A stretch of DNA of 64,000 bases from Pontibacter rufus (lineage in GTDB: Bacteria; Bacteroidota; Bacteroidia; Cytophagales; Hymenobacteraceae). The translations under genes were made by a program, and so were the position numbers. This document shows positions 1 to 64,000 of this stretch, piece after piece. The stretch is from assembly GCF_015694705.1 (NCBI RefSeq), contig NZ_JADQDR010000011.1, positions 124,001-188,000 of the forward strand. Direction: 5' to 3'. The notes beneath the pieces are model-generated. The model ran no database searches, was not told the DNA's origin, and saw nothing but the letters and a program-made list of their open reading frames with translations. How positions within the stretch are numbered: position 1 is the first letter of the stretch; the number at the start of each line of letters is the position of its first letter.

Positions 1-839
1 TCAATAATGAGGAAATATACATTGACGGCATCCTTTACCAGCCAGGCACGGCCACTTACGAAGAAATGCGGCGCCACATGTATGCCATGAAAGCACTGGG
101 CTGTAACCTTGTAAGGGTGCACATCGCCGGGGTAGACCCGCGCATCTATAACCTGGCAGACGAGATTGGCCTTTTGATGTGGGTAGAAGTACCCAGCCCG
201 CACAGCTCCACGCCCAAAAGCCGCGTAAATCACCGGGCAGAGCTGCTGCGCATGCTTGCTTTGATCGAAACAAATCCCTCCATCGTTATCTGGAGCTTGT
301 ACAACGAAGACTGGGGCGCACAGGACATTGCCACTAATCCGAATACACGCCAGTATATTATCGATGCTTATCACTTCATGAAGGTCAAGTACCCGCAATT
401 TCTGGTGGTAGATAATGACGGATGGCAACACATCTCTTTTGAAGGAAAGCTGAAATCGGACATACTAACAGCCCACCTTTACACCCCTGATCTGGAAAGA
501 TGGCAGGAGCTGCTTGATAAAATAACGGCAGGGCAGATGGAAGGCGTAGCGGCCTTTCCGCTTGTAGTGGGCGACCCGTACTTCTACAGTGGCCAAACGC
601 CCATTATCGTGAGCGAATGGGGCGGCTTCGGCTTCTCAGATTACGGTGGCCCGCAGGGATTAGAAGAGCGTACCGAGCGTATTCGTTTATTTAAACAGGA
701 ACTGCGCAAGCGGGCTATCGCCGGAGACATTTATACCCAGGCAACCAACATCGAAGAAGAACGCAACGGCCTTATCAATCCCCTTACAGGAGAGTTATCT
801 GTTCCGGCGGGTTTGCTTCGCTCAGAGGACGATGTATAA
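1..839 (+). CDS. Glycoside hydrolase family 2 protein, C-terminal part (5' end outside window)
   Basis: The reading frame is open from base 3 at the window edge, so the gene starts upstream; about 278 residues are visible. The (beta/alpha)8 catalytic domain of GH2 (beta-galactosidase/glucuronidase/mannosidase type) is recognisable. The acid/base motif WSLYNED has its Glu codon at 306-308, and the nucleophile motif SEWGGFG has its Glu codon at 615-617. Both catalytic glutamates are therefore present. GH2 enzymes release terminal sugars from beta-glycosides; the specificity cannot be read from this fragment. The protein ends soon after the barrel, without the C-terminal domain of long LacZ proteins. 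A strong terminator follows at 928-959. Confidence 0.85.
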   Translation, partial: NNEEIYIDGILYQPGTATYEEMRRHMYAMKALGCNLVRVHIAGVDPRIYNLADEIGLLMWVEVPSPHSSTPKSRVNHRAELLRMLALIETNPSIVIWSLYNEDWGAQDIATNPNTRQYIIDAYHFMKVKYPQFLVVDNDGWQHISFEGKLKSDILTAHLYTPDLERWQELLDKITAGQMEGVAAFPLVVGDPYFYSGQTPIIVSEWGGFGFSDYGGPQGLEERTERIRLFKQELRKRAIAGDIYTQATNIEEERNGLINPLTGELSVPAGLLRSEDDV

Positions 840-927
840 TACCAGCCCGGATGCCGGTTTAGAAGCATTTTTTATTAATTGCCTTAATACCAGCCGGCTA
901 CTGCTGTAAACTATACTTATTGCTGCC

Positions 928-963
928 AAACCCGGTAGGTTTTAAAACCTGCCGGGTTTGTTT
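928..963 (+). terminator. Rho-independent terminator after the GH2 gene
   Basis: Arms AAACCCGGTAGGTTT and AACCTGCCGGGTTT form a stem with a small loop, followed by a T-rich run (TTTGTTTTG). It lies about 90 bases after the GH2 stop codon. The near-symmetry means it could also work on the other strand. Confidence 0.75.
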
Positions 964-3359: not shown

Positions 3360-3405
3360 GGGGCCCGTCAGATGCTGCGGTTCCGTCTACGGGTTACACA
3401 TTACG

Positions 3406-10052: not shown

Positions 10053-10073
10053 CAAAGTATAATTTATACTTTG
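10053..10073. repeat. Perfect palindrome built from two AAGTATA motifs
   Basis: CAAAGTATAA, one T, then TTATACTTTG: 10-base arms with a one-base centre, 43 bases after the stop codon of the SdiA-regulated-family gene. The centre is too tight for an ordinary RNA loop, although the inner pairs could open. Confidence 0.7.
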
Positions 10074-10182
10074 GCACCGCTGGGCTATACTTGCCCGGCG
10101 CTCGGCATAAGTATGATTCAGCTGATGAGGCTGCATTAAAGTATAGGATATGCTGACTTTACAGGTAGCACTTCACCTGAAC

Positions 10183-18840: not shown

Positions 18841-21800
18841 TTAAAAAGAGATCACTACGCCAAGTGCATAATTCCTGGCAATAGGATACACATCTAAGCT
18901 ACCGTAACCGGCAGTCAGGCCTGTTACCCCAATTGCCGCCGGGTCAAGGCCACTGTAATTGGTAAGTGTAAATACGTTACGCACGGTGCCGTAAATTCGG
19001 AAGTTTTTAATGCGCTCTACTCCTAGCTTAGGTGTCCAGCCCAGCGTCAGGTTATCCAGCTTAAAGTAGTTACCGCTCTCCAGGAAGTAGTCTGTGATTA
19101 CTTTACCTGACTTGATCTGGCCGTTGCGGGTGTAGGCGTCTTCCAAAAGATTCACACCTGGCTCAGCCTGTAGGCCGTAATACATTTGGTATAGATTCAA
19201 AACGTCATAATCGAAGCGGCCAAGGAAGAACAGCGACAAGTCGAAGCTCTTGTAAGCAATCCTGTTACCCCATGAAAGCTCGTACTTGGGCGTTCCGTTT
19301 CCGATAAAAGTTCTATCTCTGTCTATGTTTCCTTCGGTGGTTGCATCTATTTTCTCGCCGCCTTCTTCCCCATTTTTCCAGATCAGGATGTTACCATCCG
19401 CATCTACGCCGGCATACTTATAGCCATAGAAGCTACCCAACTCGGTGCCTTCGTACAGGCGGTAAGCCGGGCCAGGATTACCAGGTGAAGGCAGGTTTTG
19501 CAAGTCCTGAAAATTGGCTGTATACGGGCCTTTAGACCAGGAAACCAGCCGGGTTTTGGTATAAGAGGCAGTCACATTAGTGCTATAGGTAAAATCGTCA
19601 GTTTCAACAGCATCCCAGTTCACGTACAGTTCCACTCCTTTAGAACTCATCGTCCCGGCATTCACTATCATCTGGTCGTGCAGTTTTGGTGGCACGGGCA
19701 CCGTGTAGCTGGAGATTAAGTCTTTACTCCTGCGGTCGAATAGATCAAAGGTGCCATCTACTTTGTTATTGAACAAGGTAAAGTCCAGGCCTAAGTCATA
19801 GGAGATCGCTTTTTCCCAGCGCAAATCTGGATTCAGGTTATTAGCGGGGCCATATACTCTGATAAATTCCCCATCATAATTGGGATATCTGCCATAGCCT
19901 GTGTACCTGGCCAGCGAAGTATAACGTGGGAAAACTGAACGGCCGGCTACGCCATACGATGCACGAAGCTTTAGCTCGTCAATCGCCTCTATGCCCTCAA
20001 TGGCAGGCAGGCTGGACATGCGCCAGGCGGCTGACAGGGACGGGAAACTTCCCCACTTGTTATTGGCTCCGAACTTGGTATTGCCTTCATAACGGTAAGA
20101 AGCAGTCAGGAAGTAAGTATCTTTGAAATTGTAGTTCAAGCGACCCAGGAAGGCAATAACTTTTTCTTTTTCTCTGTAAGAGTCCATTCCTAAGCGTCCT
20201 TCTTCGAGATTCCAGCTACCGGCATCCAAATTGTTGTAGCCAAAAGCATCAGATGGAAAATCGGCGTTCTCGGCCCAGAAATCTTGATAATTGAACTCCT
20301 GATAAGTATAGCCGCCCATAGCTGTCAGGTTATGCTCACCAATGGAAGTATTATAGTTACCGAGCCATTCAAACGTATAATCCGTCCACTTTTCGTTCTC
20401 TAGGCGGGCTCGCCCTGTGCGGTTACTAGTAATAGACTCTGCCGCCTGGGAAGTATAGTACTCCCTGCCTAAGCGGTCATGCCCTTGGCGCGCCAATTTG
20501 ATCTCAGTGTTCAGGTTATCCAGCAGATTCAATCTAAAAGTGAGATCTACAACAGAGTACTCCTGGTCTGCACCGTTTTCTCTAGCCAGCAAATTCTGTA
20601 CGGGATTGTACGTATCATACCCGAGTAGTGTGTTATACATGCTTGGATCGTTTGGATCCATAATCGGGATAGTCGGATTGAGCTTTACGGCCTGGCTAAA
20701 TGCACCATAGTTGGTATACTCTTCGTTTGCAACTCTGTAAGACATATTGCCGTTCACCTCCAGGAAACCCTGCATAGCGCGCTGAAAGAAACTTGCCCGG
20801 AGGCCGTACTCCTTGCGATCAGAGGCAATATCCAGGCCGGTTTTGGCACGATAGTTTCCGGAAATGCGGAACTGGGTGTTTTCACTTCCACCGCTGACAG
20901 CCAGGTTATGGTTTTGGCCGAAGTTATCTTCTCTAATCAGTTCATCGTACCAGTCCGTTCTGGCCCCAAAATCCTGATCCCGATCATGTGCCAGAAATTC
21001 TTCCGGGGAAAGTATATCAGGCCTGGCCGCCACGACATCGTGTTCCACATAACTGTCGTAGGTTACTGTTACCTCGCCAGCCTTGCCGCGCTTAGTCTGC
21101 ACAAGAATCACACCGTTAGCGCCTCGCGAGCCGTAGATAGCGGATGCGGCCGCATCCTTCAGTACTGTAATGGAGGCTATATCCTGCTGGGCCAGATTGC
21201 GCAGATCGCCGTTCGGCATGCCGTCTATCACTACGAGTGGGCTATTGGCGCCATCATTAGTTAAAATGGTACCTGCCCCCCGTATCTGAATGCCAGCCGT
21301 TGCGCTTGCATTCGGATCGGCAGCGGCAGTACTAGACACAGTCAGACCAGCCACCTTGCCCTGTATCATTTGCAAGGGACTGTTGAAAGCGCCCTGCTGG
21401 AACTCGTCGGCGGTAACCGTGGTAATGGCACTACTCACCTCTTTCTTTTGCATGGTACCGTAGCCTACTACCACTACTTCTTCAAGCGCCTCTGCGTCGG
21501 TACTTAAGGAAACGTCTATTACCGTCTTATTGCCGATAGGCACCTCCTGATCCTTATAGCCAATATAAGAGAACACCAGCGTACCGTTTTCCTGCCCGTC
21601 CGGAATCGTCAGTTCATAGGCACCGTCGGCATTGGTGCTTACGCCTAATGATGTTCCTTTCAGCACTACCGTTACTCCCGGTAGCGGCATACCTTTTTCG
21701 TCTGTTACAGTTCCTCTTACCTGTATCTCATATCTGGAGAGGTAATCAGCAGCAATGCCATTGCCGGAAGCTGGCACCATCGAGGGAATTTCAACAGGCG

Positions 21801-22126: not shown

Positions 22127-22736
22127 ACTTAATGCTTAAAGAATAAACACAAAAGCTTTGATAAAAACTTACAACTTAAGAAACCCTTTAATAAGCCTCT
22201 ATTATTAGCCTAAATTTAGGAACATAAATGAAAAACAAAAAACTTTATCCATAATTCTTCTTAAAGCGTGTGTTTCGCCGGTATAACTTCTTAGCGGCTA
22301 CGGTCTGATAAATAAGTGCAGCAGCAAGTCTAATTGGGACACAACGGTTAAAGTAAGCACCATGAAGAAAATTTCTAAACCTTTGAAACACGTTGTGCTT
22401 GTTAAAACATGCCAATGATTTAAAGCCGCAGAGATGGGAAAGTGAACCTTGACGATTATGTAATGCTGCTGCCTCCTTTTCGTCCCAACCTTAGGGTTAG
22501 AGATGAGAAGTAAAACAATGTCTCACCTCCCGACCAGGAGCATTTTATACTTATACAGCAAAGCGCTTCCGTCAATTTATTAGTTGCTACAACCTAGGGA
22601 AGATTCGCTGCTTTTAACGGCAATTTATACTTTATATAAAGGCACAGGTATCAAGTGGGGCATCCCAAGTATAGACAGCTCATGCCGAACCGATAAAAGC
22701 TTAAAGTATCATACAACTTTGTCTCTATATCTATAC
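22127..22736. other. Long AT-rich intergenic region upstream of SusC
   Basis: No gene is supported. Motif copies occur at 22546, 22626, 22667 and 22732. The region separates the secreted GH-like gene from the SusCD operon, so the two are probably transcribed independently. Confidence 0.5.
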
Positions 22737-24938
22737 TTACCAGGATAAACTTACCTTAATACCATCAGGACTATTCTCAAAACTTAAATAACAAGTTCCT
22801 GATGCTGCATCCCATGCGGTTTTCACATCGCTTATCTGCTCTCCTTTGCTATTAGTAAGCTTAATATCTTTAGGGGATGCTGGTAGCAGTATGCGCATGC
22901 TGTTTATCGTTTTAGCAGGGCTTTTTGCAGTAAATTTGTAACTACCGCTATTTGCTTTTTCATCATAAATTCTTGAGGCTGAAGCTAAAACCTGAGGTTT
23001 CTTTTTATCCTGAATTCTGCTGATGTTATATAGAAAAGCCTGACTGCCGGGGTTTATAACCTTTTGAGTCAAGACTGGTAGCGCCGGATCAAAAAGGTCA
23101 ATTACCGGCCCTTTAACTGTATAGGATTTATTACTTATACTTTCATCCATTACTGAGACAATATCATAAGGGCCTCTTTCTAAGTATAAATTATTCTTAA
23201 AAGTTAAATCTCCTCCCCTGGCATCGGTTTCATAAGCTTCTTTTATAGTTGCGATATACCCCGATGCGGCATTTGGTTCCATCACAAATTTTTTTGGATT
23301 TTGCCTGATCACATACACAGCACCTTTCCCAACGGTGAATTTTTCCTTTGTTGCAGCAGGATTTATACCTAATCGTTTAAATAAATCCTCGGAAGGCGCC
23401 TTATATTTATTTTCTTTCGTGTTCCACCATTCCATTACAGTTTGGTAAGGGTCATCATCCCGGCCGCAATACACCAGCACCCCACCTTTCTTTACCCACT
23501 CAGCAAGACTTTTATGCACATCCGGCGACATGGGCTTCATATTGGAATAACTCATCACCAAAACCTTGATATCTTTTAAAGAAGCGTCGAGCCCCAGATT
23601 TTCCATATGCACTGTCTGCACCGGCACGCCCCGCTTCAGCAACGGCAGTGTTTGTCCGTAAAAGTTGGAGAATTGCGGATCTTCAAATCCGTTATGTGTC
23701 GGAAAGCGCTGAAACATCAACGAATTGCCCATCAGCACGCCAATTCCATTCACGCCCGACACACGATTATCTGATAAAGGCATATCATTTAATGCATTTA
23801 TCATTACCTGCATTTGTGTTGAATAATATTTCGGTATCAACACGCTGCTATCGCTGTTTGCCACTTTATAAGGCTTGGTATAAATGCGCTCCGGCCACGG
23901 CATTACTTCATAATCAGCTACCATCGGGTATAATAATTGCGCTGTGAACGTGGCTTCATAATTACGTTTATAATCGCTCCAGTCGCGTCGCCTGTCCTCT
24001 ATAGGGTCGGTCAGGAAAAATACTTTGCGACCGGTTGGTGCCGTCATCGAGACCATAGAGCCATATTCCAGAAAAGCATTCTCAAATACTCTTTCTTTAG
24101 ATAGCCCGTTAAAATACGTTGGCTCTCTCGAAGTACCGGTCCAAACCTGGGCTATATAGCCATCTATACCCGGCAATGAGGCGAGACAGGCTTCAGGGCT
24201 GACGATTTGCCAGGATGAGTAATTTACCAGCGAATGTGTGGGGACATAAAATTTAATATCCATGCCTTTACTTTTGCCATACGCTTTCCCATAAGATGAG
24301 ACCTCCTTCAGGGCATTGTAATACAAATGATATTTTAGCTTGCTTGAGAGATAAGTATTTTCAGGTGACAAGTGCTGCGCTTTCCAGGGGAAGCCATAAT
24401 ATTTCTGCCATTCATCTTTAAAAGCCGAGCTATACCCTGCTCTTGCCCAGAACTCAGGTTCTTCCAGGTAAATTGAGCTGATTCCTGCATCAATAACTTT
24501 TTTGATGACAGCAGTTTTCATGTACTCAATAAATGATTGTACAGGCACAATATAGGGTATGTTCCTGCCATGCCAGATGGTGTCTCCATCCATTTCAACC
24601 TGCCCTTCGCCAAGGTGGTTCTTACCATCCCATTTACCTAAAAAGTAATCCTGATAGGAACCCCATGCTATTCCAGTCATGAAATGCGTATTATATCCAT
24701 GATCTCTCCAGGATTTTACGCGCTCTTCAAATGTCATTCTCTGGCGGCCGTCAGATGGATTCCCATTGACGCCATAAACAATAGCAACATCCGACCGAAT
24801 ATCAATCTCGGGCATCCATGGACTGCTTGTCTGGAATGCTGTCTTTTCTTTTAGAACAGGCGCGTCCTCCTTTCTTTGCTGCGCATTTACAGTATAAGCT
24901 ATACAAAGGATATAGAAAAAAATTATAGTTTTTTTCAT
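22737..24938 (-). CDS. Secreted GH-like protein of unrecognised family (TIM-barrel plus GATase-like domain)
   Basis: 733 residues with a signal peptide (YTVNAQ). I do not recognise a named family. Residues about 40-400 look like a TIM-barrel glycosidase: WMPEIDIRSDVAIVYGVNG, a possible catalytic loop SSIYLEEPEFWARAGYS with acidic residues, and a second polar region FYVPTHSLVNYSSWQ. Residues about 420-560 resemble the Rossmann-like trimerisation/GATase domain of GH42-type beta-galactosidases (VPVQTVHMENLGLD, IKVLVMSYSNMKPMSPDVHK, WVKKGGVLVYCGRDDDPY). A beta-sandwich ends the protein. The export signal and the position beside SusCD suggest a glycan-active enzyme; this is inference. The coding region is noticeably more AT-rich than its neighbours. 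Confidence 0.6.
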   Translation of the reverse strand: MKKTIIFFYILCIAYTVNAQQRKEDAPVLKEKTAFQTSSPWMPEIDIRSDVAIVYGVNGNPSDGRQRMTFEERVKSWRDHGYNTHFMTGIAWGSYQDYFLGKWDGKNHLGEGQVEMDGDTIWHGRNIPYIVPVQSFIEYMKTAVIKKVIDAGISSIYLEEPEFWARAGYSSAFKDEWQKYYGFPWKAQHLSPENTYLSSKLKYHLYYNALKEVSSYGKAYGKSKGMDIKFYVPTHSLVNYSSWQIVSPEACLASLPGIDGYIAQVWTGTSREPTYFNGLSKERVFENAFLEYGSMVSMTAPTGRKVFFLTDPIEDRRRDWSDYKRNYEATFTAQLLYPMVADYEVMPWPERIYTKPYKVANSDSSVLIPKYYSTQMQVMINALNDMPLSDNRVSGVNGIGVLMGNSLMFQRFPTHNGFEDPQFSNFYGQTLPLLKRGVPVQTVHMENLGLDASLKDIKVLVMSYSNMKPMSPDVHKSLAEWVKKGGVLVYCGRDDDPYQTVMEWWNTKENKYKAPSEDLFKRLGINPAATKEKFTVGKGAVYVIRQNPKKFVMEPNAASGYIATIKEAYETDARGGDLTFKNNLYLERGPYDIVSVMDESISNKSYTVKGPVIDLFDPALPVLTQKVINPGSQAFLYNISRIQDKKKPQVLASASRIYDEKANSGSYKFTAKSPAKTINSMRILLPASPKDIKLTNSKGEQISDVKTAWDAASGTCYLSFENSPDGIKVSLSW

Positions 24939-38471: not shown

Positions 38472-38744
38472 GGCAAAACAAGGCAGGGAATTTTGCAAAA
38501 GAATGGAACACCTCCTATGAAGTATGTTCGTGAGCCTAGTGCCGCCGCTTCGGTGCTTTGCCTGCAACTCTAAACCTCCCGCGTCAGGCTCTCCTCCAGG
38601 AGAGATTTCCCGTGTTTCGAACCATATGGATTTATAATCCAGTTAGTTTACTTTTATATGATATAAAAGTATAGCTGCCATACATCCGCATATCTGCCTG
38701 ATTTCCTTATCTTGCTATACTATTTATCCGAAATATTAAATCTA

Positions 38745-40190
38745 ATGCAACTACAAAAGCCGCCATACCTCCTATTGCTTTTTTTGCTGAGTGCCTGCCT
38801 TTGTAGCTGCAATGCGCTCAGGCAAACCCATAGCTATGATTTGCTGCTGACGCACGCCAATGTAGTGGATGTGGAACAGGGCCAGGTGCTGAAAAATAAA
38901 ACTGTCGTAATCGACAAAGGCACCATCGTGGAGATAGCTGATGGCGGCGAAGCTAAAAAGTATAGAGCTGCCACCACTCTGGAGGCAAAAGGCAAGTACC
39001 TGATCCCCGGCCTCTGGGACAACCACGTGCACCTGCGCGGCGGTGAGGCGCTGGAGGCTGAAAACAGAAACCTGCTGCCCCTTTATATCGCCAATGGCAT
39101 TACGACCGTGCGCGACGCGGGCGGCGATTTATACCCTGCTGTGCGGGAATGGCGCCGGCAGATAGAGGCCGGCAAGCTGGCCGGTCCCCATATTATTTCT
39201 GCCGGGCCTAAGCTGGATGGGCCCAAGCCGACCTGGGCCGGCTCTATCGAAGTAGCGACTGTCGCCGAAGTGCCTGCCGCCCTCGACTCACTGCAAAAAC
39301 TGGGGGTAGACTTTGTGAAGATCTATGATAGCACGATTTCAGGAGATGTTTTCCAGGCGATTGTAAAGGAGGCGGAGGCAAGGGGCATGCTTACAGCAGG
39401 ACACATGCCGTTTACGGCCAAACTCGGCGAAGCCATCGACAACGGCCTTGATATAACAGAGCATCTATACTACGCTTTCAAAGCGGGATCTCCCCGGGAA
39501 GACAGCATCACGAGCGTTATCCGGGCCAGCGCCAAAACCGATAAACCCGTTGGCTTTTACACAGCCCTTCACTGGCTTTACGATACCTACGCCCCGGCTA
39601 CGGCACAACAGCTCTTCCGGAAAATGGCTGCGCACCACACCGCCGTTACGCCGACTTTATACATCAGCCGCGTGCTCAACCACCTGCAGCAGGACGACCA
39701 CAGCCACGATGATTACCTGGCTTATATAGGTGATGGCATTATCAAAACCTATGACGGCAGAATCAACAGCGCCAAGCGGCAATCGCCGGAAGCCGTAGCT
39801 TTTGCGCGCAATCTGAATGCAAAGTTTCAAGGTATGGTTCCGGCCATGCAGGCCGCAGGCGTAACCATTCTGGCAGGCTCCGATGCCGGCGCTTTCAACT
39901 CGTATATATACCCCGGGCCGTCACTGCACAAAGAACTGGAACTGCTGCAGGAGGCCGGCCTTACTCCTGCCCAGTCTTTAAGAACAGCTACCATTAATGG
40001 CGCAAACGTGATGGGCAAAGCGGATAAGTATGGCACCGTTGCCACCGGCAAAGCGGCCGATCTGGTGCTGCTGGACAAGAACCCCCTGGAAGACATCCGG
40101 AATACACAGGCCATACATGCTGTAATCTTCGACGGCAAAGTATATACTTCCGCAGAACTGAAACAGCTGCTGGAATGGCTGAAAAAATAA
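38745..40190 (+). CDS. Exported amidohydrolase family lipoprotein
   Basis: 481 residues from the ATG at 38745, which directly precedes the signal peptide; an upstream in-frame ATG at 38712 would put 11 extra residues before it. The lipobox region is LSACLCSC. The amidohydrolase barrel has the metal motif GLWDNHVHLRGG (HxH), a Lys in GVDFVKIYDSTISG, His in TAGHMPF and ITEHLYYAF, and Asp in ILAGSDAGAF. The composite beta domain VVDVEQGQVLKNKTVVIDKG starts the mature protein. Related enzymes act as prolidases or imidazolonepropionase-like hydrolases; the substrate is unknown. Confidence 0.88.
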   Translation: MQLQKPPYLLLLFLLSACLCSCNALRQTHSYDLLLTHANVVDVEQGQVLKNKTVVIDKGTIVEIADGGEAKKYRAATTLEAKGKYLIPGLWDNHVHLRGGEALEAENRNLLPLYIANGITTVRDAGGDLYPAVREWRRQIEAGKLAGPHIISAGPKLDGPKPTWAGSIEVATVAEVPAALDSLQKLGVDFVKIYDSTISGDVFQAIVKEAEARGMLTAGHMPFTAKLGEAIDNGLDITEHLYYAFKAGSPREDSITSVIRASAKTDKPVGFYTALHWLYDTYAPATAQQLFRKMAAHHTAVTPTLYISRVLNHLQQDDHSHDDYLAYIGDGIIKTYDGRINSAKRQSPEAVAFARNLNAKFQGMVPAMQAAGVTILAGSDAGAFNSYIYPGPSLHKELELLQEAGLTPAQSLRTATINGANVMGKADKYGTVATGKAADLVLLDKNPLEDIRNTQAIHAVIFDGKVYTSAELKQLLEWLKK

Positions 40191-40239
40191 GCAGCCTGTT
40201 AATCCAGCTTATACCTGATATTATGCCCAGTTTACTTTT

Positions 40240-40410
40240 GTCCCCCTTTAAAATGGGCAGGGGGATGATTTACTTCTGCGGGCAGGTATTTATACTTCAA
40301 CATGAAGTATAAATGAGGTGTATTTTTAAGTGTGTAAGTATGAAGACAAGTATAAGCTGTGCAAGTATAGCTCGGGTAGTGATTATCTCCTGCCTCCTTC
40401 AAAGGGAGAC
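40240..40410. repeat. MITE-like element with imperfect 30-base inverted ends
   Basis: The segment from 40240 (GTCCCCCTTT ... GGGCAGGGGGATGATT) and the reverse complement of 40381-40410 (GTCTCCCTTT ... GGCAGGAGATAATC) match at about 70 percent of positions. Between them lie AAGTATA copies at 40305, 40348, 40363 and TATACTT at 40291. No transposase is present. Confidence 0.45.
40288..40314. repeat. Perfect inverted pair of the motif, tail-in orientation
   Basis: ATTTATACTTC (40288-40298) and GAAGTATAAAT (40304-40314) pair perfectly over 11 bases with a five-base loop. It lies 98 bases after the amidohydrolase stop codon. Confidence 0.7.
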
Positions 40411-41005
40411 TTTTTGGAATGCGGCACTTGAAGGCAGCAATAGTAAGCATGCATAAAGTTGGTGAAGACTTTTAATATCAATGTTGCTACATTATTCCTG
40501 GTGCAAAACTTGTTTTTGTCAACTTTGGCAGCCAATTTTGCATCTGTAAAGTCAATTACCCTCACAGTAGTTGGTTTATAAAGAAGAAGGGAGAGATCAG
40601 GCTCTGTGAACTTCTAGCAACCAGTTAAAAAACCAGGTGCTACATCCTGCCTAAATAGTTTAGGGCCTATAAATTACGAAAATGCAACACACCACTATCT
40701 CTTTTTCTGCCGCTCCGGCAGATCGGTTTACCCGGGTTCTCAACGGTAACACTTCATTTTATACTTCTCCGGCACACTGTTGTTTCTGCTAATGCTGCGT
40801 TGGTTTCAGGCGGATGGTGCGTAATTTATTCCTTCTGCCAGTTTTTACCCCGTGCAGCTAAGGAACAAACTATCGCCTGTTTGCAACCGTATACCTTGTT
40901 CCTTCCTGCTTTAACCTATATAAGGCTAAACCCTCACCATAGTTATTTAACACAACCTGTAGCGCGTTATACTTCCGCTGCTTTTAACATATAAAACAAA
41001 CATTT

Positions 41006-43104: not shown

Positions 43105-43282
43105 GTGCAAGTAGCAGCGATATAAGTTTTATCGGCAACCTCTTTGGCCTTTAAACCAGTACAAACACTGCTTTATAGGCTAAAGAAGTATAACGCAACA
43201 CATCCTGACGAAAACCACCTCACCCTAATCATGCCATACATGAAAAACTGCTGCGATGTCAGGCTGTTAGGGGCGGATACCT

Positions 43283-43324
43283 ATAACAGAAAAGCCCTTC
43301 TGGTTAGAAGGGCTTTTCTGTTAT
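43283..43324. terminator. Terminator overlapping the stop codon of the metalloprotease gene
   Basis: A perfect 19-base stem (43283-43301 with 43306-43324) and a GGTT loop. The arms start ATAACAGAAAAG and end CTTTTCTGTTAT. The minus-strand stop codon (43321-43323) lies inside one arm. Confidence 0.8.
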
Positions 43325-45813
43325 GCCGGGTTGTGCTTCGGATTCAGAATATTTTCAATCCTCACTATCGCATCATCTATATGATACCTGGTGAGGTCGC
43401 TGGAATAATGGCTCCGGGCGCTCTTTAACTGGCTTTGCAGTTTCACCAGCTCTCCGCGCACAATAGAGCGTATGTCAGACTGGCTGAGATCTACGGGTGT
43501 TCCGTTACGGCTGCTTCTGGTTTCTGATTTCGGTTCTTCGTTTAGCAGGTAATCCATCCTGTCCAGGTAAGCCTTTTGCAGGTTTCTGCGGAAGATGTCT
43601 ACCTGCGCGCCGCTATAGATTTCGCTCCAGATACCATGCTGCAGCTGGCGCACCATATCAAGGGCGTTGTAGTCTACATGATTCACTTCATTCTCCATCA
43701 GGCGGGTCATTCTGTCTGCCGATAGCAGGTTGTTGAGATGGCGGACCTGCAGGCTGCGGATGTTCTCTACGTAGCTGGCATGGTGAATATTCCTGCTGAT
43801 TTTTGACTGATGGAGCCAATCAGGTGAAGAAAAGGCGTTCTTCAGCAGCCAATCCAGCGAGGCTGTTTGCTCTTTGGCAGCAACCGGTGTATAAACAAAC
43901 CCCTCCTGGTTGGGCTTCAGGCGGTTTTCGTTCACACCACCCACATTGGTTACCACATGGCCAATGTAGCGGCTCCATACGCCTAACAGCTCGTCATACA
44001 GCTCTTCCAGATCGTCATAGTTGTTGGTTTCGGCAGCCGTCCAGTCATACAGGTTCGGCGCAACACGCTTCAGGTTCTTCATGCCGTAGGTGCTGGCTTT
44101 TACGATATCAGCGCCTATACCTTCTGTCTGGCTTCCGGGGTCGTAACCGCCGCTGCCGCTGCCAAACTGGTAAATCGGATTGCCGGACTTGTCGTTTATC
44201 CATTTGGAAAGTACCGGCACTTCTGCTTCCGGCGTTTTGGCTTCTGGCAGATAGCGGTAGCCCCAGTTAATGGCATAATGGTCGTAAGGGCCTAACTGGC
44301 GGACAAAGCGGATATTCTTATCGCCCGGCTGAGCCACATAGTTATAGCGCGCATAATCCATGATGGTAGCAGCAATACCATACTTTTGCGTAAACCTGCC
44401 CGAACGCAGGGAATCGGTTGGGTAGGCGGAGCTGGCCTTCATGTTGTGCGGCAAACCCAGGGCGTGGCCAACTTCGTGCGTAATCACCTCTTTCATCATT
44501 TCACCCAAATCATCCATAGGCGTATCCAAGGTGCGGGCACTTGGGTTAGCAGCTCCGGTCTCCAGCAGGTACCGATTTCTGTAGGAGCGCAGGTGGTTGT
44601 GGTACCAGATAATGTCACTTTCGATAATCTCACCTGAACGCGGATCAGACACGCTCGGGCCCATGGCGTTGCGGGTAGTGCTGGCTACGTAGCGTATTAC
44701 AGAGTAGCGCACATCTTCGGGGCTGAAATCAGGGTCTTCCTCCGGCGAAGGTGGATCTTTGGCAATGATGGCGTTCTTAAAACCAGCCGTCTCGAAAGCC
44801 TGCTGCCACTGCTCCACGCCGGCTTTAATGTAGGGCCGCAGCTTTTCAGGTGTGGCCGGGTCGAGATAGTATACAATAGGCTTCACCGGCTCTACAAGTT
44901 CGCCTCTTTTATAAGCTTCTATATCTTTCGGCACCAGGTTCCAGCGGCGGATGTAAGTCTTCTCGTCGGCCTTCAGCGCTTCAGAACCATAATCGTACTG
45001 GCTGATATTGAAGTACCCGACGCGGTAATCGTTGATACGGGGCTGCATCGGCACTTTCGGCAACAATACCATCGACTGGTTCATCATCAGGCTGATAGAA
45101 CCGGTGGCGGCATTAGAGGGTGGCTCGGCAGCATCATAAGTAAAATCCTGCTTCACCTCTATGTTCAGCGGAAAGCTTTTGGCGCTGTGAATAAAACTCC
45201 TGTCATTGTCCAGTTTGCTGACTTTGTATGTTTTTCGCATTTCAGCATCGAGGCCGCTGAACGCTTTCACATCACTCTGCAAAAGTTTAGTAACATCAAT
45301 CACATAACCTGCTGAATCCTTAGACAGCGCCGCGATATCAAAGGCATAAATCGTAGGCTGATAATTGTTCGCCTTCACAGAAAGGCTGATCGGCAGAGAG
45401 TCGGCGGCATAGGCATTATAGGATTTTGTTTTCAGGACGATCTTGTCCTCAAACTTTTGCCACACCACCATTTGCTCGTTTACCGAAGAACCTGCGTTTA
45501 CATACCCACCGCCAAGTCCGGATGGCAGATCGGCAAAGCGGCTTATCCAAAGGAAGTCGCGCTGCAGCAGGGAGTCCGGTATTTCGTAGTAATATTTATC
45601 GTTGACCCTGTGGATGGTGAAAACACCTTTGTCTGACACAGCGTCTTTTGTAATTACCTCATCGTAGCTCCTGATACCACTTTTGGAGGCAGGTTTGGGC
45701 TTTTCTGTTTTTGCGGTTTCGCTCTGTGGCTGTGCAGCTTTTGTACTGGAGCAGGAGGTTTGGGTGAGGGCCACAAGCAGGGCCATACTGATGACCTGGT
45801 AGATTTTTAGCAT
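43321..45813 (-). CDS. Zinc-dependent metalloprotease lipoprotein (DUF5117/DUF4953 type)
   Basis: 830 residues with a lipoprotein signal (lipobox TQTSC). The N-terminal DUF5117/DUF5118-like region (KGVFTIHRVNDKYYYEIPDSLLQRDFLWI in two blocks) leads to a zincin domain with HEVGHALGLPHNM, the extended HExxHxxGxxH zinc motif with a later Met, and a DUF4953-type C-terminus (YTPVAAKEQTASLDWLL). Probably cell-surface proteolysis; the substrate is unknown. It converges with the monooxygenase operon. Confidence 0.9.
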   Translation of the reverse strand: MLKIYQVISMALLVALTQTSCSSTKAAQPQSETAKTEKPKPASKSGIRSYDEVITKDAVSDKGVFTIHRVNDKYYYEIPDSLLQRDFLWISRFADLPSGLGGGYVNAGSSVNEQMVVWQKFEDKIVLKTKSYNAYAADSLPISLSVKANNYQPTIYAFDIAALSKDSAGYVIDVTKLLQSDVKAFSGLDAEMRKTYKVSKLDNDRSFIHSAKSFPLNIEVKQDFTYDAAEPPSNAATGSISLMMNQSMVLLPKVPMQPRINDYRVGYFNISQYDYGSEALKADEKTYIRRWNLVPKDIEAYKRGELVEPVKPIVYYLDPATPEKLRPYIKAGVEQWQQAFETAGFKNAIIAKDPPSPEEDPDFSPEDVRYSVIRYVASTTRNAMGPSVSDPRSGEIIESDIIWYHNHLRSYRNRYLLETGAANPSARTLDTPMDDLGEMMKEVITHEVGHALGLPHNMKASSAYPTDSLRSGRFTQKYGIAATIMDYARYNYVAQPGDKNIRFVRQLGPYDHYAINWGYRYLPEAKTPEAEVPVLSKWINDKSGNPIYQFGSGSGGYDPGSQTEGIGADIVKASTYGMKNLKRVAPNLYDWTAAETNNYDDLEELYDELLGVWSRYIGHVVTNVGGVNENRLKPNQEGFVYTPVAAKEQTASLDWLLKNAFSSPDWLHQSKISRNIHHASYVENIRSLQVRHLNNLLSADRMTRLMENEVNHVDYNALDMVRQLQHGIWSEIYSGAQVDIFRRNLQKAYLDRMDYLLNEEPKSETRSSRNGTPVDLSQSDIRSIVRGELVKLQSQLKSARSHYSSDLTRYHIDDAIVRIENILNPKHNPA

Positions 45814-45963
45814 TTTGCGGAAATGGTATCAGACTTAAAACAAACGCAGCACACCCGGCTTTAGAGCGGACATGCCCTTAAAGATAAGCCTAAATTCAGG
45901 AATTCTCTAACAGGCGCAGGAGCCGGATGTATTTTCCGACCTGAAAGCTGCCCGGCTGCGGGC

Positions 45964-46479
45964 TTAAGCGCCTTGCAGTACGCGCGCTGTTACTAGCAGT
46001 TGCCCCACATGCCGCTGTGTATGCTCCGCGGCATGCACCAGTAACACTAAAACCGTGGAAGGAATCTTCGCCCGCCCGACACCGCGTGGTGCCAGCAGTT
46101 GCTGATCATCCGTATGTCGAAGTTGATCCAGGGCTTTGCTCACCTGCCGGTCAAACGCCCGCACCAAATCCTGCACATTCCCCTCCTGCTCCGGCACTTT
46201 TCCTTCTGCTCTCAACGCCACAAGCTGCTCCTCCGTGAGTTGTTCGCCACGCGCATAGGTGAACAGCCTGTCCAGTACGCCACGCAAATGTTGTAAGTGA
46301 AAGCCAGGCGATGCCACACCGACAGGCTTTTCCCACAGCAGATCATCCGGGAAGCCCTGCATCAGCTTTTCTACTTCCTCGCGTGCCTGCAGCAGCGCAT
46401 GTGCCACAGGTTGCAATAGTCCGGGTATGCCGGGTATTGGTCCGCGCAGCCATACTTCTTGTTTCTCAGGTGTTGCCAT
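45964..46479 (-). CDS. DinB family protein
   Basis: 171 residues, four-helix DinB/YfiT-like bundle: HALLQAREEVEKLMQGFPDD, GFHLQHLRGVLDRLFTYARG (metal-binding His) and LVLLVHAAEHTQRHVGQLL (the second and third His ligands). Related proteins are metal-dependent hydrolases or thiol transferases; the role here is unknown. It lies 44 bases after the quinone reductase gene on the same strand. Confidence 0.88.
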   Translation of the reverse strand: MATPEKQEVWLRGPIPGIPGLLQPVAHALLQAREEVEKLMQGFPDDLLWEKPVGVASPGFHLQHLRGVLDRLFTYARGEQLTEEQLVALRAEGKVPEQEGNVQDLVRAFDRQVSKALDQLRHTDDQQLLAPRGVGRAKIPSTVLVLLVHAAEHTQRHVGQLLVTARVLQGA

Positions 46480-46523
46480 ACTTGCTATTTGTTCCGGGTA
46501 TAGGTAGAGCCGGTTGTCTTCAG

Positions 46524-47468
46524 CTATCCGACTGTTACCACTACCTTGCCTATGGTTTTCCGAGTTTCTACCTGTTTGTGTGCTTCGGCCATATCCTCAA
46601 AACTAAAAACATGCGAGACATGCGACCGGATGATGCCCGCTTCCAGCAGTTCTGCCAGCTTGGTTTCATCCTCGCCACTCGAGTGCACAAGGTAGTTCCT
46701 GGCTTCAATGTTCCGCGCCTTCGCTGCTGCCTGCACGGCCTCGGTGGCTCCTCCTAAAATGGATATTATCTTTCCGCCGTCTTTGAGCGTTGCCAGCGAT
46801 CTGCGCGTATTCTCCTCTCCCAACGAATCAAGCACGATGTCCGCGTCCATTACCACATCTTCTACCTTATACTTATGGTAATCAATCTGCTCATCGGCGC
46901 CCATCGTTCTCAGGAAATCATGGTTCTCTTCAGAGGCAGTACCTATTACAGTAGCCTGAAAATACTTGGCAATCTGAACCGCAAAATGGCCTACACCACC
47001 TGCTGCGGCATGTATGAGCACCCGCTGCCCTGCCTTTATTCCGGCTTCATGCACCAGCACCTGCCATGCGGTGAGAGCGGCCAGGGTGGCAGCGGCCGCT
47101 TCATGGTGCGAAACATTGGCCGGCTTGTGCGCCAGGTGCTTTTCCGGCGCTGCCACGTATTCGGCATAGGCCTTACCGCTCCCCGGAAAATTCACCATGC
47201 CGAACACCTCATCTCCTTCTTTAAAATAATTTACCTCCTCGCCCACTGCCACCACTTCACCTAAAATATCCCAGCCCACAATTACCGGCGGGTTTTCTTT
47301 CAGGGTATTGTAAAAGGCTTTCCCTTCGCGGGTTTTCGTATCCACGGGATTAATGCTGATAGCCCGTACCTTTACCAGCACTTCGCCTGCCTGAGGGATT
47401 GGTTTATCTGTTTCCTGTAGTTGCAGGTTTTCCGGTGCGCCTGGCTCGTTTAAAACTAATGCTTTCAT
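46524..47468 (-). CDS. NADP-dependent quinone oxidoreductase-like MDR protein
   Basis: 314 residues of the zinc-independent medium-chain reductase family: MKALVLNEPGAPENLQLQET at the start, VKVRAISINPVDTKTREGK, VIVGWDILGEVVAVGEEV and the NADPH motif VLIHAAAGGVGHFAVQIAKY. There are no structural zinc Cys residues. It likely reduces quinones or enones using NADPH. Confidence 0.9.
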   Translation of the reverse strand: MKALVLNEPGAPENLQLQETDKPIPQAGEVLVKVRAISINPVDTKTREGKAFYNTLKENPPVIVGWDILGEVVAVGEEVNYFKEGDEVFGMVNFPGSGKAYAEYVAAPEKHLAHKPANVSHHEAAAATLAALTAWQVLVHEAGIKAGQRVLIHAAAGGVGHFAVQIAKYFQATVIGTASEENHDFLRTMGADEQIDYHKYKVEDVVMDADIVLDSLGEENTRRSLATLKDGGKIISILGGATEAVQAAAKARNIEARNYLVHSSGEDETKLAELLEAGIIRSHVSHVFSFEDMAEAHKQVETRKTIGKVVVTVG

Positions 47469-49776: not shown

Positions 49777-51900
49777 TCAGTACTGGCTACCAAGTTCCAG
49801 CACGAAGGCGCCGGAATCCGCCACATCATAGTATGCAATGCCGAGTGTGTCGAGTTGCCGGTGCAGGCGCTGCCGGTACCAGAGACTGTTGGAAGCATCC
49901 AGAATTACCTTTTCAGAAGTATAACTTTGCAGATCTTCCGACCTTAGGCGAACGTTGTTGCGCAGCAGGATATAATCGAGCGGCAGCCGGGATTTAGGCT
50001 GTAGTTTGGGAGGGTGAGAAAGTATAAGCAGCCTTTGGCCCTGCCATACCACCAGCCGGTTGCTATCGGGTAAGGCCGTGATAGCCGGATCAGCAACAGG
50101 CGTTCCCTCCAGGCTGACGAACTGCGGTTGCGGCACGCCCAGGTGCCACAGGTGGGGTTGGATGTTATATGTATAGTTACCTTCATCGTGCAGCAAAACT
50201 GAATCGGCCAGCATGGTAGCCTGTTGCCCCTGCACCAGCGCAATGCCGGTTGCCCGGCGCACATTGTAAATGGCCAAGGTCTGCTGTTGTTTCTGCTGCA
50301 GCACTTCCGCTATCTCCTGCCCTGCCAGTATCGCCACTACCACGGTAGCGAGTGCCAGGTAACGCAGCTTTTTCAGCGACAGGAAAAGTATAACGAGTAT
50401 GAGCAGCACATACAACAGCACCGTTTGCAAAAGTGAAATATCGATGCCGTTGATGAGCGCCAACGGCAGGTGCGTCAGCCCCGTGTTCAGCTCGTTCATG
50501 CACCAAATGACGCCAAAATGAAGCTTAAATAGAAGCGGCCCTATAACCGGAATCCAGACCAGGGCCAGCGCTGTCAGGCCGGTGTACAATGCCAGTGTAG
50601 ACAGCGGCACCACCACCATGTTAGCCAGCCAGAAGTATACCGGAAACTGGTGGAAGTATAGCAGACCGAGCGGCAGCGTAACCAGTTGCGCTGCCAGCGA
50701 AACTGTGAAGAATAGCCATAATTTGTTAAGCAGTTGGTTATCGAATGCCAGCAAGCGGTAGAAGCGTGGCTGAAAGTATACAATGCCCAGCACCGCCAGA
50801 AACGATAACTGGAAACCGACATTCAGCAGGAAATAGGGATTGTAGAGCAGCAGGGCAAAGGCTGCAATCGCCAGCGTGTTGTAAATATTTGTGCGCCGCC
50901 CAGAAGCCAGCGCCACGGTTACGAGCGTAAACATCACCACAGAACGAAGCACCGAAGGTGACAGGCCCGTCATGAAAGCGTAAAACCAAAGGCCAAGTAT
51001 AGCCACAATGGCGGCCAGCAGGCGCTGCCGCGGCGTGCGCCTGAAATGAACCAGCACCAGCATCATCACGCCATAAATCAGTCCTACGTGCAACCCCGAT
51101 ACCGAAAGCACATGCATGGTGCCCGTGTTGATGTATGCTGCTTTGATGGCATTGTCCAGTTCGTCGGTTACGCCAAGTATGAGCGCTGAGGAAATAGCAT
51201 ACTCTCTGCGCGCCGGTATCTTTTCCCGAAGGAGTTGTTCCAGTTGCCGCCGCCACCGGATGCTCAGGTATAAAACAGGATTACCCGGTTCGGAGCCTAA
51301 TTTCACATACTCGTGCGCCTGCAGAAATTGCCGGTAAAAGATATTTCGGTTTGCCAAATAAGCGCCATAATCAAACTGGTTCGGGTTTTGGGCGGCGGGC
51401 ACAGGTTGCGGCGCACCTTTCACCAGCAGCCTGTCGCCATAGGTGAGTTCATACGGCTGCTCCGAATCATGCGGCACCGACAGTTGTACTTTGCCTGTTG
51501 CGGGTTGCCAGATCCCGTTCACCTGTACCTGCTCCAGTTCCAGCACGGTGCGCTGGTAGCCGGGCTTCTGTACCACGTAATCGTCCACCACACCGACATA
51601 GTAGGCTAGCGGGTTTTGCAGATGAAGAAGATGATTCGGCGCATGTAATTCGGTGTGCAGGTGCGTTGCCCACAGGCCGCCTGCCACAAAGCACAGCAAG
51701 CCTAGTATACCGGCCACATCGGTTACAGAGCCCGATTTATACCTGCGCGCCAGCAGAAAAGCCACCAAGTATGCGGCCACAAAAAAAGCAAGGACTTCAG
51801 CGCTGTAACTGAAATCCCTGCCTGAATTAAGGTATAGCAGAATGCCTGCTATAAAACCCAGCGTAATGCGAACGAAGGGGTATGGCGCCCACCGCAGCAT
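49777..51900 (-). CDS. comEC: ComEC/Rec2 family DNA-uptake channel protein
   Basis: 707 residues, polytopic membrane protein. An N-terminal DUF4131 region with an OB-like segment (about 90-220) precedes the Competence domain with the signature MHVLSVSGLHVGLIYGV and several helices (about 240-520). The C-terminal part (about 540-707) is a reduced domain without the HxHxDH metal motif of the beta-lactamase-like nuclease domain found in other ComEC proteins. It probably carries single-stranded DNA across the inner membrane in natural transformation. The start overlaps the stop of the GNAT gene by one base (TGATG), so the two are coupled. Confidence 0.9.
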   Translation of the reverse strand: MLRWAPYPFVRITLGFIAGILLYLNSGRDFSYSAEVLAFFVAAYLVAFLLARRYKSGSVTDVAGILGLLCFVAGGLWATHLHTELHAPNHLLHLQNPLAYYVGVVDDYVVQKPGYQRTVLELEQVQVNGIWQPATGKVQLSVPHDSEQPYELTYGDRLLVKGAPQPVPAAQNPNQFDYGAYLANRNIFYRQFLQAHEYVKLGSEPGNPVLYLSIRWRRQLEQLLREKIPARREYAISSALILGVTDELDNAIKAAYINTGTMHVLSVSGLHVGLIYGVMMLVLVHFRRTPRQRLLAAIVAILGLWFYAFMTGLSPSVLRSVVMFTLVTVALASGRRTNIYNTLAIAAFALLLYNPYFLLNVGFQLSFLAVLGIVYFQPRFYRLLAFDNQLLNKLWLFFTVSLAAQLVTLPLGLLYFHQFPVYFWLANMVVVPLSTLALYTGLTALALVWIPVIGPLLFKLHFGVIWCMNELNTGLTHLPLALINGIDISLLQTVLLYVLLILVILFLSLKKLRYLALATVVVAILAGQEIAEVLQQKQQQTLAIYNVRRATGIALVQGQQATMLADSVLLHDEGNYTYNIQPHLWHLGVPQPQFVSLEGTPVADPAITALPDSNRLVVWQGQRLLILSHPPKLQPKSRLPLDYILLRNNVRLRSEDLQSYTSEKVILDASNSLWYRQRLHRQLDTLGIAYYDVADSGAFVLELGSQY

Positions 51901-59665: not shown

Positions 59666-59678
59666 ACCGGGGCTGCTG

Positions 59679-60656: not shown

Positions 60657-60739
60657 ACCTTGTGTATCACCAGATTCACCCTGGTATTTGCCACGCAATT
60701 ATTCAGGTAAATCTAGCATATCGTTAACAGACCTTGCGC

Positions 60740-63103
60740 TTACTTTAAGAGCCGGATGTAGTAAATGCCTCCTGCCACAGAGCCATCATGGGCAACAAAT
60801 TTCACCTGCAGCACATCAGGATCGCTACTGGTAATGGCTTTGGGAAGATCATAATCCACATCAAAGAACCGGTCTCCTTTTGAGCCATCGAGGTTTACTG
60901 TGGCTACCAGCTGCCCGTTCACCAGAATGTCAAAATTGCGGTTCTGGTCTTTGCCGTAGTACGTAACGCGCAGCTTGCGGGCCTCGTGGCTGGTGTTCTT
61001 AAGCTCGTAGCCAAACCAGCCTGAGGCATGCCGCCAGTGGCGGTCGTTGTAAATGCCTGCTTCCGTTCGCTCACCCCGGAACTTGTGGTCAGACTCCGGT
61101 TGCTGCTCTCCCGGAGCCACCTGGTCTACAGTCGCCTTGTCCAGCACCAGTTTTGCCTCATCCGCCGCATGCATCGACTGCCTGAGGCTGTCGAGCCCCG
61201 CAGGCGTTGTAACGGGCCAGTATACCATGTAGCGTGCATCATGAATCTGGTAAAAAGGCACCAGCTTTACCTGTTTATACTTATCGGACGAGATAATCCC
61301 CGCCGCAGAAAAGACAAGCGGCTGCCCGGCAACAGGCTTCACACCGGCAGCATAGGCGCTGTCTGCCGACACGAGCAGGGGCGCTTCTTCTACCGGGTAC
61401 AGCGGGCCGTTGGCAATATGGCCCATGCGGCTGCTGTCGGCCCACAGTCCTGTCAAATCGGTAGTGTCGGTGGCGGCGGCCAGCACCATGGGGCCATGCA
61501 CAAACGATACCCAGGGCGAGTGGTCGGGCAGGTATTCCGCTTTGGTTTCCATGGGTAAGGAAACAGTGACTTTATCACCTGACTTCCATTTACGCGATAC
61601 CGTTACATACGAGGAAGGAACGGAGCTGACAGCCATTTCTTTGCCGTTCACGCGCACCTTCAGTTGTCCCGCTTTCACCCATTCAGGATGCCTGATGTGC
61701 AGCGCGAACTTCGCCGGCTTTTTCAGTTTAAGCTCGATGTCAGTTGACTCCTGGTAAGGGAACTTTGTGTGCTGCACCAGCGAAACGCCTTTCTCCTGCC
61801 AGTTGAGGGTGGAGGCGATAAACAGGTTTACAAAAAGATCTTTGTCGTTGTGCGCGTAAATCAGCTCGCCATACTTGCCGTGGTTTTCGAGGCCGGAGCC
61901 CACGCAGCACCAGAAACCCTGTTGCGGCTGTGAGTAAACGCGGTAGTGCCTGGGGCGCATAGGTGTAAAGTACACGAAACCGCCCTTGCCCGGGTGCTGG
62001 GACGAGAGGATGTGGTTATACATAGCTCTTTCATAGTAATCCATGTAGGCGCATGCAGCACTATCCAGAAACAGGCTTTTCGTGAGCTTGAGCATGTTAT
62101 AGGTGTTGCAGGTCTCAGGCCCTTCCTTCGATTCGACCATAGAGGAAAAATCGTTGGCCGGATGGAAGTGTTCTCTTACGCTGTTCCCCCCAATAGACAC
62201 CGTCCGGTTATGCACTACCGTGTTCCAGAAGAAATCTGCAGCACCGGCCCAGGACTTGTCTTTATCAAGTTCGGCAATCCGTAAATACCCGATAACTTTA
62301 GGTATCTGTGTGTTGGCGTGCAGGCCGTTCAGCTCATCTTTCCGGGCAAGGAGCGGCTTTAGAATAGAACGGTCAGAGAACCGTTGCGCCAGCCGGAGGT
62401 ATTTCTGATCACCCGTAATAGCCGCTACATCAGCAAATACTTCATTCAGGCCGCCATGTTCGCTCTTCAGCATTTCCTGCATCTGATCCTCAGAGAGCTC
62501 TGCTGTAAGGTTTATACACCAATCCGTAAGCTTTACCAGGATATCCCGTGCTTTCTCATTTCCTGCAAAAACATAAGCATCGCGCAGCCCGGCATACAGC
62601 TTGTGCAGGTTATACCAAGGCACCCATTTGCCATTTAAAGAAAAGCTGCCCGCATCTATTTTACCTTGCGCAATTTCCTGCCACATCGCCCGTCCGCCGG
62701 GTACGCCGCCCACATAGCCGTTGCCGCTGCGCTGCTGGCAGGTATCTAACCAGCTCACCATGTAATTAAGCCTTTGCAGCAGTTCCGGGTTTCCTGTTGC
62801 CGCATACATCAAAGACAAAGCAGAAAGGTAATGGCCGCCGATGTGCCCGTCAAGGCCTGTGTCCTCCCAGTTGCCATAGTTCGCAGCCTTTGGCGGAATA
62901 CCCGCTTCCGTCAGGTAAGGCGCCAGCAACCTGTCAGGGTCAAGGGCCAGCATGTAACGCATGTCCGTCTGCTGCGCCTCTTTAAAAGGGCTGTCCAGCA
63001 ACCGCACCGAGGATAAGGGAAATGCTTCCGGTTGCAGGTGCTGGCAAATGCCAGGGACTGATATCAGCAGAAAGGTTGCCAGGCTTAGAAGAGGAAGTTT
63101 CAT
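60740..63103 (-). CDS. GH127 beta-L-arabinofuranosidase family protein (DUF1680)
   Basis: 787 residues with a signal peptide (SVPGICQ). The (alpha/alpha)6 barrel (about 30-440) has GLDGHIGGHYLSALSLMYA, VPWYNLHKLYAGLRDAY, GGLNEVFADVAAITGD and the catalytic zinc-Cys site. Glu330, Cys332 (in EGPETCNTYNMLKL) and Cys399/Cys400 (FWCCVGSGLENHG) match the E-x-C and CC arrangement of the studied GH127 enzyme. Beta-sandwich domains follow. It removes beta-L-arabinofuranose from plant glycans. No other arabinose genes are in view. GH146 is a possible alternative subfamily. Confidence 0.9.
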   Translation of the reverse strand: MKLPLLSLATFLLISVPGICQHLQPEAFPLSSVRLLDSPFKEAQQTDMRYMLALDPDRLLAPYLTEAGIPPKAANYGNWEDTGLDGHIGGHYLSALSLMYAATGNPELLQRLNYMVSWLDTCQQRSGNGYVGGVPGGRAMWQEIAQGKIDAGSFSLNGKWVPWYNLHKLYAGLRDAYVFAGNEKARDILVKLTDWCINLTAELSEDQMQEMLKSEHGGLNEVFADVAAITGDQKYLRLAQRFSDRSILKPLLARKDELNGLHANTQIPKVIGYLRIAELDKDKSWAGAADFFWNTVVHNRTVSIGGNSVREHFHPANDFSSMVESKEGPETCNTYNMLKLTKSLFLDSAACAYMDYYERAMYNHILSSQHPGKGGFVYFTPMRPRHYRVYSQPQQGFWCCVGSGLENHGKYGELIYAHNDKDLFVNLFIASTLNWQEKGVSLVQHTKFPYQESTDIELKLKKPAKFALHIRHPEWVKAGQLKVRVNGKEMAVSSVPSSYVTVSRKWKSGDKVTVSLPMETKAEYLPDHSPWVSFVHGPMVLAAATDTTDLTGLWADSSRMGHIANGPLYPVEEAPLLVSADSAYAAGVKPVAGQPLVFSAAGIISSDKYKQVKLVPFYQIHDARYMVYWPVTTPAGLDSLRQSMHAADEAKLVLDKATVDQVAPGEQQPESDHKFRGERTEAGIYNDRHWRHASGWFGYELKNTSHEARKLRVTYYGKDQNRNFDILVNGQLVATVNLDGSKGDRFFDVDYDLPKAITSSDPDVLQVKFVAHDGSVAGGIYYIRLLK

Positions 63104-64000
63104 TAATCAGGCTGTTTTAAGTAGTAAATTATCTAAGAGCAAGTTTAAAATTCGTGCTTTGCGCTGCAAATTGCCCATAAAGGAACCTGTCTTCACGCTT
63201 TTATCGCCACGTAGCGCTGCTATGCGGCTCAAAAACCATTTCGCCAGAACCCTTTCTGAACACTTTTCGCTTGCAAAAACGAAATTTAAACATGCTCTAA
63301 AAGTACGAACTGGCGCTAAAGAAAATAAACACCTTTTATTATAAATTTATAAATAACTATACAACGCAACGTGTAGTTTACGCGCACGATGATAATTCAA
63401 AGGTATTTTCACGCAACACCAGCCCTTCCTCCGGTGCTCATCTTGCAGGGAAAAAAGGGATTTTGCGGAGGATTTGTTGTGGAAGGAACAAGAGGATTAT
63501 GCAGGCAGCCCTTGCCGTTCTTCAAAAGGGTAAACCTACAGGTGCTGCACGATAGCCTTGCCTGCATGCCGCTCCTGCTCTTCGAGGAACGACAACTCCT
63601 CACTCATAACTGATCCATACACCATCTTTTGCTATGCGTACAACTCAGTTTAATATGGTATCAGTTCAATATGGTAGTAACTGCATTCCCCCGCATTATT
63701 GTTAAAACTTCTACGCGGTGCCCTTCTAAAGCCGGGAAACAGGCATAACATAAGTTTATTGCGCCAATCAGCCTAACGATGTTAATGCTGATAGTGGCAA
63801 ACGGCTTATACTTCACAACCCGTGACGCAATGGAATCAAAAGAAGGAATTACCTTGAGTTAAAACTCAGGATAATTCCGGGCAGGCCTGCATCAAAGAAG
63901 AAGCCTGACATGAAATTCAGTTATACCAAGTTTGCATCATCTACATTAAGTATAACAATCTTCTTATCATTTGGATCTGTTTTCAGGGAGGCTTTAAAGA
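63104..64000. other. Intergenic region at the window end
   Basis: No gene with recognisable content. Small open frames on both strands at about 63389-63613 mirror each other and look non-coding. Motif copies lie at 63807 and 63948. The next gene probably starts just outside the window. Confidence 0.5.

Follow-up and report, generated by a model that had tools for sequence, protein, structure and literature searches.

AAGTATAR in Pontibacter: one dialect of a candidate self-recognition tag for natural transformation

The AAGTATA motif in a 64-kb stretch of the Pontibacter rufus genome

The DNA analysed here, positions 124,001 to 188,000 of contig NZ_JADQDR010000011.1 of Pontibacter rufus (64,000 nucleotides, hereafter the window), carries the competence gene comEC together with many copies of a short word, AAGTATA, which is one form of a motif that probably serves this genus as a self-recognition tag for DNA uptake. 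The heptamer occurs in 95 exact copies, 55 on the forward and 40 on the reverse strand, against a mean of 7.07 and a maximum of 13 in 100 dinucleotide shuffles and a second-order Markov expectation of 11.2, and it ranks first by z among the 7-mers of the window. A first-pass annotation had counted 94 copies and reported the excess, which these numbers bear out; 14 of its 15 example coordinates are exact, the one given as 38394 being in fact 38384. In the whole genome (5.03 Mb) AAGTATA is found 3623 + 3804 = 7,427 times and the reversed pattern 276 + 314 = 590 times; the excess is thus neither absorbed by a second-order Markov model nor confined to this region, the two outcomes that the annotation had named as speaking against its own claim.

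The core, whose extension the annotation had proposed to test, reaches beyond the heptamer, with AAGTATAA present 51 times in the window (3.1 expected) and AAGTATAG 23 times (1.7 expected). Because the core extends to either of these words the consensus is AAGTATAR, and the natural unit of the motif is eight bases long. In 445 kb of this genome conserved sequence is limited to about AAGTATA[A/G][A], and a repeat element was rejected as the source since the flanks are not conserved. In the same 445 kb the motif is neutral in orientation to gene strand, uses every reading frame and occupies both strands, so that a promoter or codon effect was rejected, in agreement with the view of the annotation that copies within and between genes on both strands call for another explanation. 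By the gene calls of the window, 48 copies lie inside and 46 between open reading frames (ORFs; 0.90 vs 4.39 per kb). The corresponding densities are 1.01/kb and 3.25/kb in the 445 kb and 1.77/kb and 6.58/kb in genome G013, with ORFs called by a simple longest-ORF rule, which makes the coding boundaries approximate. Motif strand is not associated with GC skew, taken as a proxy for replication (Spearman rho -0.21, P = 0.13, 53 windows), and among pairs 8-40 bp apart no excess of inverted ones was found (101 same-direction, 64 inverted).

The features of the window are:

1..64000, both strands: all motifs of the window, AAGTATA in 95 copies with the consensus AAGTATAR, from the window and genome-wide counts
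10055..10145: four clustered copies (10055+, 10065-, 10086-, 10139+) in the intergenic space between an ORF ending at 10009 and an ORF starting at 10249
22546..22738: four clustered copies (22546-, 22626-, 22667+, 22732-), mostly intergenic, flanked by ORF 18841-21933 and ORF 22737-24938
40138..40369: six clustered copies (40138+, 40143-, 40291-, 40305+, 40348+, 40363+), mostly intergenic, in a stretch that contains the end of ORF 38712-40190; the next ORF starts at 41006
43186..46874: longest motif-less stretch of the window (3.7 kb), with a copy at each end
49777..51900, reverse strand: comEC, as already read by the annotation (707 amino acids; Competence PF03772, Pfam E = 7e-61, and DUF4131), holding seven motif copies (49917, 50020, 50386, 50633, 50654, 50774, 50995)

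A SAM riboswitch (RF00162) is located at 40573-40675, just downstream of the six-copy cluster.

The motif exists in dialects across the genus

The comparison across the genus comprised 50 Pontibacter species (genomes labelled G0xx), whose dialects were read from profiles of the three bases preceding TATAR and from whole-genome counts. The word enriched in P. rufus is a variant of NNN-TATAR, a motif found across the genus in which TATAR is constant and NNN varies between species, example words being AAGTATAA, AACTATAG and AGGTATAG. AAG-TATAR is the dialect of most species, with up to 9,637 copies, 54-fold over control; the heptamer AAGTATA reaches 11,818 copies (controls 333) in another Pontibacter species. 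AAC-TATAR is used by the group of G060, G018, G065, G066 and G030 (9,803 to 11,475 copies), AGG-TATAG by a clade of 12 species (GGTATAG, 4,161 to 6,653 copies) and NTA-TATAR by G069 alone (TATATAR, 8,955 vs 2,087), whose sister G036 has weak GGTATAG and TATATAR, and AAG and AAC are mixed in G026, G032 and G065. The remark of the annotation that GGTATA is common as well fits this pattern, as AGG-TATAR is the second-ranked form by enrichment in P. rufus (123 vs 37) and the main dialect of a sister clade.

In 10 of the 50 species the motif is absent (G027, G068, G025, G033, G023, G064, G024) or weak (G002, G007, G036); the profiles of several motif-free species come from 12-22 kb only, with which the whole-genome counts of four words concur. 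A model in which species with low counts have merely lost the motif was rejected, as k-mer discovery revealed other words in most of them. Outside the genus, AACTATAR was at or below control in about 100 genomes from five other genera of the family, and among the words listed no comparable dominant word was seen in other genera, of which 20-120 kb each were sampled.

In a tree built from ComEC and PhoH (plus RecQ where present) the dialects largely follow the branching and species with the AAG form occur in every main branch. For this reason the simplest reading of this tree of few genes would be that the AAG form was present early in the history of the genus and that switches and losses came later.

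Sites are maintained and switched in place

Conservation in related genomes, which the annotation had named as a means of checking the motif, was evident: between species sharing a dialect 214 of 313 sites (68%) are kept, compared with 1753 of 4391 permuted 8-mers (40%; odds ratio 3.25, P = 1.4e-22). Alignment of AAG-type sites to other dialects shows an AAC-type site opposite 17 of 114 (controls, 1 of 2190) and an AGG-type site opposite 4 of 33 (controls, 0 of 655). The pairs share ancestry and references, so that not all of these sites are independent; almost every pair points the same way. Sites are thus maintained over evolution and swapped in place between dialects. Maintenance is not uniform, the retention advantage being absent from the comEC region of G000 and G019.

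Motif density differs between genes

Ranking 28 gene families, mostly taken from comEC neighbourhoods and hence not genome-wide, placed comEC first with 4.13 motifs/kb in 38 dialect-bearing species and three dialects, the family median being 1.27/kb and the reversed control 0.09/kb. The PhoH gene, two places from comEC, has almost none. In P. rufus itself comEC is fifth among 121 sampled ORFs of at least 1.2 kb. Across the 28 families motif density declines with protein identity (rho -0.52). Widely shared genes carry 2.58/kb and genes without homologues in other windows 1.23/kb, a comparison that is partly confounded, the widely shared set consisting of few families and including comEC. The motif is half as dense as usual in SusC/D-like genes (P = 0.04), and the longest motif-empty tract in the sampled genome, 9.1 kb, is a SusC/SusD sugar-utilisation locus.

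Competence genes in Pontibacter

ComEC, DprA, a ComEA-like triple-HHH protein and a ComF-like protein, whose matches fall below the curated cut-off of TIGR00201, are present in all 50 species. The genes for these four proteins are essential for transformation of Riemerella anatipestifer (PMC8459023). In G021 all four are broken, at distant positions on its contig C1 (comEC at 2.77 Mb, dprA at 4.16 Mb, the HHH gene at 2.08 Mb, comF at 1.50 Mb), and the GNAT and PhoH genes adjacent to comEC are intact; sequencing error could account for one such break, less so for four at distant loci. Judged from the gene sequences, G021 represents a natural loss of transformation, and since the breaks lie at four separate loci and the GNAT and PhoH neighbours are intact the four genes appear to act as one functional module. 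Further breaks were seen in G009 (comEC and dprA broken, a stop reported within comF) and in G018 (comEC frameshift).

A homologue of the Riemerella surface protein was sought via DUF5689 and rejected, the matches being a large nuclease-like protein and proteins of ~430 amino acids with no correspondence to motif status. The large one, ~1,290 amino acids in several Pontibacter species (loci L142 and L137-L146), shows lamin-tail-like repeats, an endonuclease/exonuclease/phosphatase-like domain and a sorting-like C-terminal end in translation and is possibly an extracellular nuclease. Pontibacter plasmids, which we wanted as a foreign-DNA control, were not among the records listed.

Dialect-bearing species have smaller genomes

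Genomes of dialect species average 4.60 Mb and those of species with no or a weak motif 5.78 Mb (Mann-Whitney P = 5e-6), and independent contrasts likewise link dialect to genome size (r = -0.59, P = 5e-6), both results being correlations between groups defined after the motif data had been seen. The smaller genomes of dialect species would be in keeping with a tag limiting foreign DNA.

Discussion

We favour, with a probability of roughly 65%, the reading that Pontibacter uses NNN-TATAR as a tag to recognise self DNA during natural transformation, in the manner of the DNA uptake sequences (DUS) of Neisseriaceae and the uptake signal sequences (USS) of Pasteurellaceae, and that a putative receptor reads it. 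This is suggested by dialects that keep one core, by sites that are preserved and switched in place, by the lack of strand bias, by lower density in less-shared DNA and by the competence module, along with the scale of the enrichment and the high density in comEC. From this we infer a role of the tag in uptake and the existence of a receptor of changing specificity. Such a receptor, at the cell surface or in the periplasm, would bind tag-bearing DNA. The ComEA-like triple-HHH protein would receive this DNA next and ComEC after it, and recombination would be the work of DprA, ComF and RecA. Preferential uptake and recombination of tagged fragments would let tags accumulate and be upheld by molecular drive wherever sequence constraint permits, and drift in receptor specificity would slowly rewrite the whole genome to a new dialect through in-place substitution plus new sites. 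Of the roles that the annotation had listed, an uptake-like tag is thus the one favoured by the comparative evidence, a replication signal is disfavoured by the missing strand bias, and a transposon target is unsupported.

Several observations weigh against this reading. No ATPase of type IV pili or type II secretion systems (PF00437) was found in the 50 genomes, only short partial matches of which three genomes had one marginally over the cut-off, indicating that Pontibacter lacks the usual reader of DUS. Motif-free species retain intact comEC, dprA, comF and HHH genes, so motif loss does not track loss of competence genes, and G021, although its excess is the lowest of its clade (11.5), shows no clear decay of its sites, its retention ratio of 1.64 falling among the values of species whose genes are intact; loss of competence genes as the cause of motif loss is therefore unsupported. 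Motif spacing is slightly clustered, the coefficient of variation equalling or exceeding the simulated mean in nine of nine stretches, and the densities of shared genes are confounded as described. Finally, we found no uptake or transformation experiments on Pontibacter, and our analysis found no receptor.

The DUS of Neisseriaceae form dialects with a conserved core and variable positions that follow phylogeny (PMC3630211). Pontibacter resembles them in its thousands of short non-palindromic words on both strands, in dialects that follow phylogeny and in the presence of competence genes, but it belongs to the Bacteroidota, its word is shorter (eight bases) and denser, and the inverted terminator pairs frequent in Neisseriaceae are not in excess. 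As the pilus motor ATPase was not detected, a type IV pilus receptor was rejected, a ComP-like pilin receptor is unlikely and the motif should not be classed as a ComP-type DUS, although it would work like one if the reading is right. Like the USS of Pasteurellaceae it marks self DNA throughout the genome, comes in variants, lies in both coding and non-coding DNA and is rarer in more conserved proteins; it differs in lacking similarity to known USS, a detectable pilus system and, in the nine stretches tested, even spacing. The over-represented word on both strands, the lineage dialects with a conserved core and the conserved competence machinery are thus common to Pontibacter and the DUS and USS systems, and the pilus motor, inverted terminator pairs, even spacing, the replication-strand bias of Chi or KOPS and the palindromic octamer of HIP1 are not found in it.

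Within the Bacteroidota, Riemerella has ComEC, DprA, ComF and the HHH protein in common with Pontibacter (PMC8459023), and R. columbina favours its own DNA (PMC7965970). Unlike the Pontibacter motif, the k-mers put forward as candidates in Riemerella are A-rich words, and no dialect system has been described there. In open-access papers, with subscription papers and preprints outside the search, we found no earlier report of such a tag in Bacteroidota.

To our knowledge, sequence-tagged DNA uptake is established only in two proteobacterial families, both using type IV pili. If the reading is true, a dialect tag in Bacteroidota would represent an independent origin with a different receptor. 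A more far-reaching scenario, pilus-independent sequence-specific uptake in Bacteroidota by a putative receptor that changed its specificity at least three times in one genus, with genomes rewritten each time and loss accompanying genome growth of ~1 Mb, is tentative, and we put it at slightly under even odds. The genus would allow motif gain, switching and loss to be compared with gene content, making the evolution of uptake tags and their effects on gene flow and genome size testable, and a tag on donor DNA might serve as a handle for laboratory transformation of these bacteria.

The main rival, which we regard as unlikely, is that an abundant protein, either organising the chromosome or acting in regulation, binds the motif and has shifted in specificity between lineages, sites being kept because the chromosome needs a minimum density of binding. 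One site per 400-700 bp, on both strands, genic and intergenic, conserved and subject to dialect switching, would suit such a protein, but the complete absence of the motif from several congeneric species is awkward for a structural role, and neither the inverse relation to genome size nor the enrichment in comEC is predicted.

Much less probable is a signal that marks self DNA inside the cell and is linked to methylation or restriction or, in the manner of HIP1, to repair. HIP1 (GCGATCGC) of cyanobacteria is a hyper-abundant short word of debated function that varies between species; the Pontibacter motif is similarly abundant and species-variable, but HIP1 is a palindromic octamer and AAGTATAR, AACTATAR and AGGTATAG are all non-palindromic, which also speaks against methylation. 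Lineage-specific variants could reflect shifting methyltransferase specificity; tenfold enrichment is, however, unusual for methylation targets, and sites under restriction pressure normally become rarer.

An incidental product of mutation bias or of dispersed repeats from one family, for which the AT-richness of the motif and its greatest excess between genes could be cited, is a little more improbable again, given that conservation stops at 8-9 bases, that sites are kept above permuted controls and that no word of comparable dominance was seen in the 20-120 kb sampled from each of the other genera of the family. Least probable of all is a Chi-like recombination or replication-orientation signal, which a short non-palindromic word so frequent throughout the genome might recall but which is at odds with the absence of strand preference relative to GC skew or gene direction and with a density far above that of known Chi sites.

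Other repeated words

At a contig end of G000 (L016, G000:C2:208001-208696, about 612-696) a perfect head-to-tail tandem array of AAGTAT extends over at least 70 bases and probably caused the assembly break. In 20 kb of G074, from another genus of the family (L175, 1-20000), the palindrome CCTAGG is strongly enriched (56 vs 8 expected). Overlapping words around AATTAGGA/TTCCTAATT are enriched in the comEC region of Rufibacter glacialis (L158; 15 vs 0.3 expected) and probably represent a local repeat, and in 20 kb of the comEC region of the motif-free species G027 (L100) enriched GAGGTAGA/GGTAGAGA words may be a local repeat as well.

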